NCBI RefSeq assembly: GCF_020889785.1
Contig: NZ_JACMYK010000017.1
Location: 1 to 64,000 of the forward strand
Reading direction: 5' to 3'
Length of the DNA stretch: 64,000 nucleotides
Origin: Bradyrhizobium acaciae
GTDB lineage: Bacteria > Pseudomonadota > Alphaproteobacteria > Rhizobiales > Xanthobacteraceae
Below the pieces are notes generated by a model. The model was not told the origin of the DNA, ran no database searches, and saw only the letters and a program-made list of their open reading frames with translations. The first letter of the stretch is position 1; every line of letters starts with the position of its first letter. The translations under genes and the position numbers were made by a program. Shown in pieces: positions 43,289 through 52,024 of this stretch.

Positions 43289-44842
43289 ATGAAGCTGACG
43301 CAGGCGCTCATCTCGGCGGTGCAGTTGCGCAAGGATGCACCGGGCACGATCCATGCCGGACGGTCGCGGAGCTGGAAGGAGATCGGGCGGCGCGTTGCCT
43401 GCGCTGCGGGCGGGCTGCGGCGGCTCGGCATCGAGGCCGGCGACCGGGTCGCCATCCTCGCGCACAACAGCGACCTCTATATCGAGGCGCTCTATGCCAT
43501 CGCCTGGGCCGGCGGGGTCGCGGTGCCGCTCAACACGCGTTGGGCTGTTGCCGAGAATGCCTATGCGATCGACGATTCAACGCCGAAGCTGTTGCTGGTC
43601 GACAAGGCCTTTGCCGAAATTGCATCGGCGCTGCGAAGCGCGAAGTCACTCACCGCGATGATCTACCTGGACGAGGGACAGGTCCCCGAAGGCATGCAGG
43701 GCTATCAGGAACTCGTTGCGCACGCGCCGGTCGAGGACGCCTCCGGCGCCTACAACGATCTCGCCGGCATCTTCTACACCGGCGGCACCACCGGCTTTCC
43801 CAAGGGCGTGATGCTGTCGCACGCCAATATCATCTATGAATCGCTGGTCTGGATCTATGCGCTGCGCTTCCGCGAAGACACCAGGTATTTGCACTCGGCC
43901 GGCATGTTCCATCTGGCCGGCACCTCGCCGATGATCGCGCTCACGCTTGTGGGCGGCACCCATGTCACCATTCCGAAATTCGAACCCGAACTCGCTATGA
44001 AGACCATCGCCGAGCACAGAGTGGACTACTGCCTGTTCGTGCCGACTATGCTCAACATGATGCTCAATCATCCGTCCTTCGGCAGCTATGATCTCAGCAG
44101 CGTCAAGGATTGCGAGTATGGTGCGTCGCCGATGCCGGATGCGCTGCTGGTCAAGCTGATGCGCGTGCTGCCGAGCTGGCGCTTTCACCAGGGCTACGGC
44201 ATGACCGAGAGCGCGGCGTTGGCGACGATTTTGCCGTGGGAATACCACGCCCTGGAAGGGCCCCTGGCGGCCAAACGGAAATCGGCGGGGCGGGCGGCGC
44301 CGGGCGTCGAGATCCGCATCGTCGATCCCGCGGGCCACGAGGTGCCGCGCGGCACCGTCGGCGAGATCGCGATCCGCGGCGCCGGCGTGATGCTCGGCTA
44401 TTGGCGCAAGCCCGAGGAAAGTGCGCGGGTGCTGCGCAACGGCTGGCTGCACACCGGCGACGGCGCCTGGATGGATGAAGACGGTTTTGTCTATATCGTC
44501 GACCGCCTGAAGGACATGATCGTCTCCGGCGGCGAGAACGTCTATTCCGGTGAGGTGGAGAACGCGATCTTCCAGCACGAGCAAGTCAAGGAGTGCGCCG
44601 TGATCGCGGTGCCTGATCCGCAATGGGGCGAGGCGGTGCACGCCATTGTCGTGCCGAAGGACGGCGCGCGGCTCGATTCGGACATGGTGATCGCACATTG
44701 CCGCACCCTGATCGCGGGCTACAAATGTCCGCGCTCGGTCGACATCCGTCTCGAGCCGCTGCCGCTGACCGGTTCCGGCAAGATCATGAAGTCGGCGCTG
44801 CGCGACGAGAAGTGGCAGGGCTATGCGAGGTCGGTCAACTGA
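43289..44842 (+). CDS. Acyl-CoA synthetase (AMP-forming)
   Basis: 517 residues. The AMP-binding signature YTGGTTGFPKGVML, then YGMTESAALA, HTGDGAWMDEDGFVYIVDR and the C-terminal lysine loop PLTGSGKIMKSAL are all present. It activates a carboxylic acid to its CoA ester using ATP. GGAGGAAAC precedes the ATG at 43289. Its stop overlaps the kinase start as TGATG, so substrate activation and the next step are made together. A medium-chain or aromatic acid is likely; specificity is not readable. Confidence 0.92.
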   Translation: MKLTQALISAVQLRKDAPGTIHAGRSRSWKEIGRRVACAAGGLRRLGIEAGDRVAILAHNSDLYIEALYAIAWAGGVAVPLNTRWAVAENAYAIDDSTPKLLLVDKAFAEIASALRSAKSLTAMIYLDEGQVPEGMQGYQELVAHAPVEDASGAYNDLAGIFYTGGTTGFPKGVMLSHANIIYESLVWIYALRFREDTRYLHSAGMFHLAGTSPMIALTLVGGTHVTIPKFEPELAMKTIAEHRVDYCLFVPTMLNMMLNHPSFGSYDLSSVKDCEYGASPMPDALLVKLMRVLPSWRFHQGYGMTESAALATILPWEYHALEGPLAAKRKSAGRAAPGVEIRIVDPAGHEVPRGTVGEIAIRGAGVMLGYWRKPEESARVLRNGWLHTGDGAWMDEDGFVYIVDRLKDMIVSGGENVYSGEVENAIFQHEQVKECAVIAVPDPQWGEAVHAIVVPKDGARLDSDMVIAHCRTLIAGYKCPRSVDIRLEPLPLTGSGKIMKSALRDEKWQGYARSVN

Positions 44843-45885
44843 TGCTGGAGGCTACGAAACGATCCGACGATGCTGCCGCCGTGGTCAATGACGACGCGGT
44901 CCGGGCGGCGCTCGCGCAGCATCTGTCACGGATATCCGGACGCCGGACGGAGATTGTCAGCTTCGGCCGCAAATCGTCGGGCTTCTCCTGGATCACCTAC
45001 GCCTTCGTCGCGCGCTCCGCCGCTGAAGCAGATCGCAAGCTGATCCTGCGCGTCGGTCCACCGAGCGGCCTGTTTGCACCGTATTCGGTGCTGCCGCAGG
45101 TCTACGCGTTGCAGGCGCTGGCGAATAGCGGCGTGCCGGTGCCGGCGCTGGTGTCGTCAGAGCAGGATGGCGCCGAGATCGGCTTTCCTTTCTTCATCTG
45201 CGCGCATGTCGAGGGCGATGTTCCTGCGCCCTGGGCGGCGAACGAGCTCGATCCGGACCACAAGCGCGACATCGCCCGGCAGTTCGTCGAGATCCTCGCA
45301 TCGCTGCACCGGATCGATCCGGGCGCGACCCCATTCGCGTCGCTGCAACAGGGGGAGCAGCGCGCTGAACTGCGCGCGATCTCTGGCTGGCGCGCTTCGC
45401 TGGCACGTCCGACCGCGCGTTATTATCCATTGCTCGATTGGGGAGGGCGCTGGTTGCACGATAATTGTCCGCAGCCGCCACGCCGCACCATCGTGCATGG
45501 CGACTACCGGATCGGAAATTTCATCGAGCACGAGCGGAAGATCACCGCCATTCTCGATTGGGAACTGACTCACCTGGGCGATCCGCATGAAGATCTGGCC
45601 TGGGCGATGATGCCGACCTTCAACGCCAGGAGCCGGAAGCTCTATGGCGTGCTCGAGCGCGCGGAGGTGATCGATCTCTATCAGCGCGCCTCCGGCATTG
45701 CGGTATCGAACAAGAGCCTTGCCTTCTACGAGGCCTATGCGCTGTATCAGGCGGCGGCGATCCAGATGTGCGCGGTGCGCGCCTTCGAGGTCGACCGCTT
45801 CAACGACATGCGGCTTGCGGTGATGGCAAGCCAGATGCCCTCGATCGTGCGGGCCTTCGAGCGCGCATTGGAGGCCGCGGCATGA
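44842..45885 (+). CDS. Phosphotransferase-family kinase (LvaA/ACAD10-like)
   Basis: 347 residues of the APH/choline-kinase fold. The catalytic loop is IVHGDYRIGNFIEHE (H-G-D-x-x-x-x-N) and the metal site ILDWELTHLGDPHEDLAW (D-W-E). Members next to acyl-CoA dehydrogenases, such as Pseudomonas LvaA and the kinase part of ACAD10/11, phosphorylate 4-hydroxyacyl-CoA. Here it lies between an acyl-CoA ligase and a small LvaB-like protein, with a dehydrogenase in the same locus, which supports that role by context rather than by proof. Confidence 0.82.
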   Translation: MLEATKRSDDAAAVVNDDAVRAALAQHLSRISGRRTEIVSFGRKSSGFSWITYAFVARSAAEADRKLILRVGPPSGLFAPYSVLPQVYALQALANSGVPVPALVSSEQDGAEIGFPFFICAHVEGDVPAPWAANELDPDHKRDIARQFVEILASLHRIDPGATPFASLQQGEQRAELRAISGWRASLARPTARYYPLLDWGGRWLHDNCPQPPRRTIVHGDYRIGNFIEHERKITAILDWELTHLGDPHEDLAWAMMPTFNARSRKLYGVLERAEVIDLYQRASGIAVSNKSLAFYEAYALYQAAAIQMCAVRAFEVDRFNDMRLAVMASQMPSIVRAFERALEAAA

Positions 45886-50834: not shown

Positions 50835-52024
50835 ACGTCATGACCCCGGATCCGCGCCAGCTCACCGAGACCGCATTCCATTTTACGGAGCAGCCCAATC
50901 TGCCCGAGGAACTGCGGATGCTGCGTGAGCAGGTGCGCCGCTTCGTCGAGAAGGAAGTGGTGCCGCATGCCGACGCGTGGGAGCGCGACGGCAAGATCCC
51001 GCGTGAGATCTATCGCCGCATGGGCGCGCTCGGCTTCCTCGGCATGCGCCATGCGGCCGAATATGGCGGCACCGACATGGGGCCGCTGGCCTCGATGGTG
51101 TTCGCCGAGGAACTTGGGCGCTCGAGCTTCGGCGGCTTCACCTCGTCGATCCTTGTGCATACCGACATGTCGGCTGTTCACATCAGCCTGCGCGGCACGC
51201 CGGAGCAGAAGCAAAAGTACCTGCCGGCGATTATCCGCGGCGAGACGGTGTGTTCGATCGCGGTGACCGAGCCCGACGCCGGCTCCGACGTCGCCGGCCT
51301 GAGGACGCGCGCGCGGCGCGATGGTGATGTCTGGGTGATCAACGGCGCCAAGATGTTCATCACCAACGCGGTCTACGGCGACATCCTGATCGTCGCCGCG
51401 CGCACCGATCCGCACGCCAAGGGCAGCCGTGGCATCTCGCTGTTCATCGTCGAGCGCAACACGCCGGGCATCACGGCGACCAAGCTGGACAAGCACGGCT
51501 GGCTCTGCTCGGACACCGCCGAGCTCGGATTCCAGGACGTGCGGGTGCCGGCGGAGAACCTGCTCGGCGAGGAGAACAAGGGTTTCTATGGCATCATGGA
51601 GACCTTCCAGAACGAGCGCATCTGCATCGGCGGCATCTGCGCCGGCGAATCGGCCAAGGCGATCGAGCTGACGACGAATTACGTGAAAACGCGGCAGGCG
51701 TTCGGCGGCCCGCTCTGGAACCAGCAGGGCGTGCGGCTGAAGCTCGCGCAGCTCGCCGCAAAGGCCGCCGCCGCGCGGGCGCTGGCCTATCAGGCCGCCG
51801 AGCTTGCTGCGGCCGGGAAGGAATGTCTCCGCGAAGTGTCGATGGTGAAGGCGCTCTCGCCGGAGGTGCTGCACGAGGTCGTGCATGGCTGCCTGCAACT
51901 GCACGGCGGTTCAGGCTTCATGCGCGGCACAGCGATCGAGCGGATGGTGCGCGACGCCCGCGTGCTGACGATCGGCGGCGGCGCCACCGAGGTGATGCTC
52001 GAAGAAGTTGCCAAGCGGATGTGA
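50831..52024 (+). CDS. Acyl-CoA dehydrogenase
   Basis: 397 residues with the ACAD N-terminal, middle (CSIAVTEPDAGSDVAGLRTR, WVINGAKMFITNA) and C-terminal domains (LHGGSGFMRGTAIERMVRDA). At the place where many members have the catalytic Glu (Y-E-G-T) this protein reads IGGGATEVM, as in a large bacterial subgroup; the base then lies elsewhere or the reaction differs. It oxidises an acyl-CoA with FAD, or eliminates phosphate as in the LvaC case. Last gene of the operon, 11 bases from the convergent one. Confidence 0.92.
   Translation: MNVMTPDPRQLTETAFHFTEQPNLPEELRMLREQVRRFVEKEVVPHADAWERDGKIPREIYRRMGALGFLGMRHAAEYGGTDMGPLASMVFAEELGRSSFGGFTSSILVHTDMSAVHISLRGTPEQKQKYLPAIIRGETVCSIAVTEPDAGSDVAGLRTRARRDGDVWVINGAKMFITNAVYGDILIVAARTDPHAKGSRGISLFIVERNTPGITATKLDKHGWLCSDTAELGFQDVRVPAENLLGEENKGFYGIMETFQNERICIGGICAGESAKAIELTTNYVKTRQAFGGPLWNQQGVRLKLAQLAAKAAAARALAYQAAELAAAGKECLREVSMVKALSPEVLHEVVHGCLQLHGGSGFMRGTAIERMVRDARVLTIGGGATEVMLEEVAKRM

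Follow-up and report, generated by a model that had tools for sequence, protein, structure and literature searches.

The window analysed here comprises 64,000 nucleotides of the 8.47 Mb genome of Bradyrhizobium acaciae, and all coordinates are positions within it. It carries a block of nine plus-strand genes, headed by an acyl-CoA ligase (ACS), an APH-fold kinase (KIN) and a small protein (PART), and to the left of these, on the minus strand, a gene of the 25-phosphosteroid lyase (25-PSL) family (Table 1). An earlier note on this DNA had likened the block to the levulinate operon of Pseudomonas. Gene calls and family scans recovered all the genes which it named, in the same order and on the plus strand; the dioxygenase beta subunit had been overlooked, and while the block does lie at 43289-52024, the system reaches further left, as far as the lyase gene. 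We propose, with a probability of roughly 0.7, that KIN, PART and the lyase form one ATP-dependent dehydration module for a catabolic alcohol. KIN, with PART as a tightly bound or activating subunit, would transfer phosphate to a hydroxyl of some catabolic intermediate; elimination of that phosphate by the lyase would then leave an alkene, to be fed into CoA-ester degradation by way of the acyl-CoA ligase, an enoyl-CoA hydratase, an SDR dehydrogenase and an acyl-CoA dehydrogenase (ACAD). Kinase and lyase presumably act in sequence. The suggestion of dehydration through a phospho-intermediate is thereby retained as an inference, with the eliminating role passing from the ACAD to what is likely the lyase.

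Table 1. Features of the locus, with positions in the 64,000-nucleotide window.
Feature	Position	Strand	Basis and remarks
Thioesterase-like gene, frameshifted	39763-40705	-	4HBT_3, sub-threshold
25-phosphosteroid-lyase-family protein, 371 aa, AttH/CrtC-like fold; proposed phosphate-eliminating lyase	40702-41817	-	
ABC-type periplasmic binding protein, divergent unit with lyase	41861-43084	-	PF13458, E 3e-45
Acyl-CoA ligase (ACS), 517 aa	43289-44842	+	PF00501, E 9e-85; heads the ACS-KIN-PART unit
APH-fold kinase (KIN), 347 aa	44842-45885	+	PF01636, E 9e-34; motifs HGDYRIGNF and DWE
PART, 169 aa, helical; proposed kinase subunit	45882-46391	+	ATGA overlap with KIN
Palindrome ACCGAACGGTCGTTCGGA; possible TetR-type operator	46503-46520	+	Pattern read at the site, 5' of the dioxygenase
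Rieske ring-hydroxylating dioxygenase, alpha subunit	46582-47841	+	PF00355, PF00848; nearest PDB entries 7yls/8h2t, E 5e-57
Ring-hydroxylating dioxygenase, beta subunit	47841-48338	+	PF00866, E 2e-24
Enoyl-CoA hydratase/isomerase family protein (ECH)	48352-49146	+	PF00378, E 6e-52
SDR dehydrogenase	49148-49897	+	PF13561, E 7e-62
HSL-family alpha/beta hydrolase (esterase)	49899-50834	+	PF07859, E 7e-65
Acyl-CoA dehydrogenase (ACAD), not LvaC/ACAD11-type	50831-52024	+	PF00441/02771/02770
Possible accessory unit: NAD(P)H-oxidoreductase-like, branched-chain-type ABC transporter, FadD11-like ligase, CrtI-like FAD oxidoreductase	52036-60768	-	
TetR-family regulator	61048-61683	+	FadR/FasR-type TetR models, below cut-offs

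PART is rare, being present in 2 of 149 genomes of the family, 7 of 397 of the order and 2 of 398 of the phylum, samples which overlap and in which the genome under study is itself counted. Its nearest named relative, from Bradyrhizobium uaiense, is 99% identical. When an alignment of four PART sequences was run against genome contigs, 51 loci were obtained, 16 of them from Bradyrhizobium and 35 from other bacteria which, judged by their titles, are mostly proteobacteria (e.g., Variovorax, Rhodoferax, Rubrivivax, Ramlibacter, Acidocella, and Hydrocarboniphaga). Counts given below are of loci: the 51 represent no more than 50 genomes (L049 and L064 lie on one contig), three seed loci recur among them, and the PART sequences of L036 and L037 are identical. 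KIN is found directly 5' of PART in all 51, and in 45 the two genes overlap by four bases. The same four-base overlap in the window, downstream of a one-base overlap between the ACS stop and the KIN start codon, bears out the earlier description of an APH-fold kinase (PF01636) with a small, translationally coupled partner. Five of the six remaining loci have gaps of 9-103 bases, and in the sixth, a Variovorax locus (L031:7447-9024, plus strand), KIN and PART form one frame of 526 amino acid residues; since the assembly is metagenomic and the junction irregular, it was not counted as evidence of fusion. The constant adjacency of KIN and PART, together with the retention of the block in 16/16 Bradyrhizobium loci as far as the contigs or fetched stretches extend, argues that the arrangement is not due to chance.

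The homology of the lyase to 25-PSL spans almost the whole protein; the entries for 25-PSL (9fzn, 9g2i, and 9g4c) have been public in the PDB since January 2026. The family profile, built from 31 of 45 called genes after 13 Bradyrhizobium sequences and L036 had been dropped, matched these entries with an expectation value (E) of 6e-46 over profile positions 2-362 of 371; up to E 10 the alignment had two PDB matches, both of them 25-phosphosteroid lyase (E 6e-46 and 4e-45). Used alone in phmmer, the window protein gave E 4e-32 over residues 3-364 of 371. Its AlphaFold2 (AF2) model (mean predicted local distance difference test score, pLDDT, 84.6) resembles 25-PSL in fold, with a best Foldseek E of 1e-28 and a template-modelling (TM) score of 0.81-0.83 by model length, and it superimposes on 9fzn with Z 38.5 and a root-mean-square deviation of 2.6 over 332 aligned residues, the next family being AttH at Z 22.6. 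Both proteins possess the motif R-D-x-S-W-G, the Asp of which is present in 9fzn and replaced by Asn in 9g4c, where phosphate and product are bound. The longer motif RDxSWGxR is intact in the window lyase, and its Asp (D175), invariant in 31/31 aligned sequences, is presumably catalytic. Against Pfam the protein matches DUF7065 below the cut-off (18.1 vs 27 bits). We consider it likely to be the phosphate-eliminating enzyme of the module.

In 45 of the 51 loci the fetched stretch includes a lyase homologue; for the other six the gene is found elsewhere in the genome (E below 1e-211), and a whole-genome search of these and of L046, where the gene is split, located it in 7/7, that of L046 in two pieces. 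Identity to the window protein is 87-98% in Bradyrhizobium and 47-53% elsewhere, and the PART and lyase genes are neighbours in 18 of the 26 non-Bradyrhizobium loci in which both were called. The two genomes with a close lyase in a 349-genome sample of the phylum are the same two which carry PART in the 398-genome sample. Distant homologues only occur in 14 other genomes of the 349 and at a second place in the genome under study. A profile search of these 15 stretches detected a KIN-like kinase in six, two of the matches being weak (E about 1e-5 to 1e-6); with the limit set at E 1e-4, neither PART nor DUF6285 was detected in any. The second, distant homologue of the present genome (L098, G000:C30:41000-58000) lies at about 7838-9163 on the minus strand and adjoins a short kinase-like match.

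The kinase alignment comprises 29 of 52 sequences, 13 from Bradyrhizobium and ten others having been dropped. The catalytic-type residues Asp221 and Asn226 of KIN are invariant in 29/29, and the residues of HGDYR-GNF and DWE are intact. By profile, the solved proteins closest to KIN are 9o56, 3dxp, 3ats, 9fsg, and ACAD11, the relationship to the ACAD11 kinase domain having E 4e-17. Entry 9fsg is labelled in the PDB only as "aminoglycoside phosphotransferase-like"; it may be 25-HSK, the kinase which acts before 25-PSL. That KIN itself corresponds to 25-HSK was considered as a lead and not adopted, 25-HSK being described as a monomer with no lyase gene close by. The N-lobe motif GPP-G-F-PY---P, common to both KIN clades, is unlike that of the LvaA-like kinase F14, which is of the DREF type, and unlike that of the DUF6285-linked kinases. 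The spacing of Asp221 and Asn226 equals that of D220/N225, residues named for the ACAD11 kinase in the available text of PMC12440821. The same text names an Arg beside the canonical Glu as contacting CoA. In alignments read by eye, the position just before Glu/Gln is Arg in ACAD11, 9o56, and 3dxp and Pro in KIN; since a putative CoA-contacting residue is thereby replaced, there is a hint, with the numbering uncertain, that KIN may bind its substrate differently.

PART, modelled as entirely helical (AF2 pLDDT 85.5), had been called LvaB-like. Searched against Pfam up to E 1 it gave nothing but a sub-threshold PRODH match (E 0.022) and thus no match to DUF6285 (PF19802), which we take, following that note, to be the LvaB family; NCBIfam gave no match up to E 0.01, and BLASTP against DUF6285 nothing (E 3.2). 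At the family level, then, PART is ruled out as LvaB by sequence. The PART profile likewise had no PDB match up to E 1, and the fold search with its model none at E 0.001 or better. Comparison of profiles by hhalign, using 38 of 52 PART sequences (12 from Bradyrhizobium, L037, and the truncated L062 were dropped) and 12 DUF6285 proteins, assigned a probability of 1-2%, the aligned part being the N-terminus of both. The local score (46 PART rows) was 19.3, narrowly above all of 200 column shuffles (maximum 18.9), with 10.0 for the reversed profile, and the global mode gave no sensible alignment (E 0.85). The LvaB-like label did not hold up, and what is left is a hint that the two families may be remote kin. 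A single DUF6285 match exists in the genome, on another contig (G000:C169), where it adjoins a different APH kinase. PART is presumably a subunit of the kinase; a small protein also participates in the phosphorylation step of the levulinate pathway, according to the available text of PMC9399607.

The ACAD of the window had been thought to eliminate the phosphate, as LvaC does. R626, H634, R637 (in HCMR), and D753 are described, in the accessible part of PMC12440821, as common to LvaC and ACAD10/11. HCMR was not found in any of the 47 members of the cluster to which the window ACAD belongs, nor R-x7-HCMR in any of 53 sources (the window, the 51 loci, and L080), and the position of the Asp is occupied by Gly in the window ACAD and in 12 other Bradyrhizobium members of the cluster. 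Its best PDB matches are 2pg0, 3r7k, 4u83, and LCAD, and ACAD11 is not among the 59 PDB sequences listed at E up to 1e-40. We therefore reject it as an LvaC: HCMR and the Asp are missing and the structural matches are to ordinary ACADs. The parallel with the levulinate operon survives in outline and fails in these details, PART not being a DUF6285 protein by Pfam and the ACAD lacking the LvaC signature. As a separate observation, 30 ACADs in 27 non-Bradyrhizobium loci have Asp (I-G/A-D-G), as ACAD11 does, at the position which in ordinary ACADs, MCAD among them, is occupied by the catalytic Glu.

A more distant group of four KIN-PART loci was also examined. Three of these have an ACAD with the R, HCMR, and Asp at exactly the ACAD11 spacing. 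One protein of the locus L125 matches DUF7064 and DUF7065 above cut-off and contains WRDHSWGPR, and counterparts 72-85% identical to it occur in the other three loci; the presence of this DUF7064/7065-type protein in all four led us to discard a plain exchange of the lyase for an LvaC-type ACAD. Across the 55 loci examined, KIN-PART is accompanied in the genome by an AttH/DUF7065-type protein and sometimes by an LvaC-type ACAD. A broader reading, which we offer tentatively and hold at a little under even odds, is that KIN and PART constitute an undescribed two-component alcohol kinase serving different eliminators: in the 51 close loci a lyase of the 25-PSL type, and in the divergent clade a DUF7064/7065-type protein (with an LvaC-type ACAD in three of four). 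Such a system would be generally able to dehydrate, at the expense of ATP, alcohols that are tertiary or otherwise unactivated, in catabolism other than that of steroids (e.g., of plant terpenoids or hormones), and one version, in soil bradyrhizobia, would be joined to a Rieske dioxygenase.

The APH-family kinase and lyase logic of the window is that of 25-HSK/25-PSL in Sterolibacterium denitrificans. Extracts of this bacterium phosphorylate the tertiary C25 alcohol and then eliminate phosphate to give the alkene, as separate activities (available text of PMC8449060 and PMC7411048). With 25-hydroxysteroids as the analogy, the alcohol addressed by the present module would probably also be tertiary, and it may be ring-derived or even a steroid; abscisic acid, terpenoids, and methyl-branched alicyclic acids are guesses from chemistry alone which we do not claim as substrates. 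By comparison with S. denitrificans, most of the loci collected here have the genes for kinase and lyase in one cluster, the window block contains an acyl-CoA ligase, and Bradyrhizobium adds the Rieske dioxygenase. The lvaABCDE system of Pseudomonas putida resembles the window in combining an APH-fold kinase and a small protein with an acyl-CoA ligase, an SDR, and an ACAD nearby, and differs in the kinase motif, in its small protein, in the type of ACAD, and in that we assign elimination to a lyase. The mammalian 4-hydroxyacyl-CoA kinase-ACAD fusions ACAD10/ACAD11 possess a related kinase domain and the same logic of phosphorylation followed by elimination, as far as the available text of PMC12440821 and PMC11342911 describes them; the window ACAD lacks equivalents of their R626/H634/R637/D753, whereas all four are present in three of the four divergent KIN-PART loci.

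Several findings weigh against the proposed module. The purified 25-HSK was a monomer of about 45 kDa and, in the available text of PMC8449060 (2021), there was no candidate lyase gene near that of 25-HSK, whereas KIN is coupled to PART. Among its solved relatives, the KIN profile ranks 9fsg below 9o56, 3dxp, and 3ats; the lyase is only 27-28% identical to 25-PSL, and its fold is shared by AttH, kievitone hydratase, and pericyclases. Nine of the 15 distant lyase homologues lack a KIN-like kinase nearby by profile (two of these nine stretches have a short kinase match by tblastn), and the four divergent KIN-PART genomes yielded no close lyase at E up to 0.001. The 51 loci are not independent, having been collected through PART similarity. 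The ACAD cluster has 34 members outside Bradyrhizobium; 30 of these, in 27 of the 35 loci, have the Asp without HCMR, and because it stands where LvaC/ACAD11-type ACADs have their catalytic Asp, an eliminating ACAD is possible in those loci.

This last point bears on the explanation closest to the earlier note, in which an LvaAB-like pair phosphorylates a 4- (or 3-/5-) hydroxyacyl-CoA and the ACAD of the block eliminates the phosphate. Such a route would account for the acyl-CoA ligase and ACAD in the block, for the kinship of KIN to the ACAD11 kinase domain, and for the complete ACAD signature in three of the four divergent loci as well as the lone Asp in the 27 others; it is nevertheless improbable for the window, whose ACAD is of the ordinary type with neither HCMR nor Asp, whose kinase has Pro in place of the Arg of ACAD11/9o56/3dxp and an N-lobe motif unlike that of F14, and which contains a lyase homologue instead. 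Marginally less improbable, though still unlikely, is that this homologue is an AttH-fold hydratase, isomerase, or binding protein and that the kinase activates another group, for example a phenol or carboxylate. The breadth of the fold would permit this, and phosphorylation of phenolic groups by HpeHI initiates other aromatic pathways (available text of PMC9618137), but 25-PSL is by far the nearest solved relative (Z 38.5 vs 22.6) with RDxSWGxR intact, and HpeHI is, in that text, a phenylphosphate synthase homologue while KIN belongs to the APH family. That KIN is a resistance-type or housekeeping APH kinase placed in a catabolic cluster by chance we regard as very improbable. A similarity to the NCBIfam APH(3') and Mph models, weak and far below their cut-offs, speaks for it; against it, its best solved relatives are kinases of the 3dxp, ACAD11, and 9o56 type rather than resistance enzymes, PART and a close lyase homologue are present in the genome for 51/51 collected loci, and enzymes of CoA esters abound nearby.

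The most serious competitor accepts the dehydration module and separates it from its neighbours, ACS-KIN-PART with the lyase and the dioxygenase-ECH-SDR-esterase-ACAD operon being two independent systems with different substrates. We judge this rather less than probable, yet it has substance. PART and the dioxygenase are separated by 190 bases which contain the palindrome; its core, CGAACG-N2-CGTTCG with at most one mismatch, occurs at the matching site in 14 of the 16 Bradyrhizobium loci and is absent there from L027 and L028. Owing to this gap and the conserved palindrome, ACS-KIN-PART and the genes from dioxygenase to ACAD are probably two transcription units; the binding protein, lyase, and thioesterase-like genes probably form a third, divergent one. 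In addition, neither the dioxygenase beta subunit nor the esterase was found in the 35 non-Bradyrhizobium stretches, where the alpha subunit had a single partial match of 27%, and the dioxygenase operon, found beside the module only in Bradyrhizobium loci, may thus be a separate unit. On the other hand, the block stays together in every Bradyrhizobium locus over the sequence available, and relatives of ECH, ACAD, and SDR go with the module elsewhere too. Of the 35 other loci, 29 have ACADs around it, 28 enoyl-CoA hydratases, 13 a histidine phosphatase, and 10 a CoA-transferase. The dioxygenase itself possesses the Rieske domain, the catalytic domain, and the beta subunit (PF00355, PF00848, and PF00866); no ferredoxin or reductase for it is encoded among the nine genes of the block, to which the search was confined. 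Its top PDB match may be IadD.

Within the literature matches listed, which cover the literature in part, there is no description of a clustered kinase-partner-lyase module. ATP-dependent dehydration shared between a kinase and a distinct lyase is known from an anaerobic bacterium, which applies it to sterol side chains (available text of PMC8449060). Here both activities appear in diverse proteobacteria as a mostly clustered module with a putative extra subunit, among many genes for CoA-ester enzymes (no search for steroid genes was made). If the proposal is correct, it would represent a general biodegradation route around tertiary or otherwise blocked alcohols, would give a role to AttH/DUF7065-type proteins, and would provide a testable gene set in culturable soil bacteria such as Bradyrhizobium and Variovorax.

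Among the neighbours of the module outside Bradyrhizobium, a histidine-phosphatase gene (L034:7334-7963, His_Phos_1) lies near the kinase gene, as it does in 12 other loci. L030 encodes bzdQ, a subunit of benzoyl-CoA reductase, with a score above cut-off; a related gene in L044 scores below cut-off. In L035, L042, L049, L055, L056, and L061 a second APH kinase (F14) adjoins a second ACAD (F17, without HCMR), possibly another kinase-ACAD pair.

To the right of the block, the first gene of the accessory unit adjoins it in 11 of the 16 Bradyrhizobium loci; family matches of the genes scanned in this unit are mostly below cut-offs. Its CrtI-like gene (59485-60768) was considered as a steroid desaturase and set aside, its two PDB matches both being unnamed oxidoreductases; the available text of a paper on the delta-24 desaturase describes that enzyme as without similarity to phytoene desaturases. 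Even with three mismatches allowed, the palindrome at 46503-46520 does not recur in the window. A weaker palindrome-like site, with two mismatches, lies at 60873-60892 between the CrtI-like and TetR genes and may be due to chance, since there are eight such sites across the window. The thioesterase-like gene beside the lyase has lost two bases relative to the open frame in L014, L017, and L020, and is either a pseudogene or an assembly error. Near the right end of the window (62936-63979, plus strand) lies a gene for a serine hydrolase, a relative of class C beta-lactamases scoring far below the model cut-offs.

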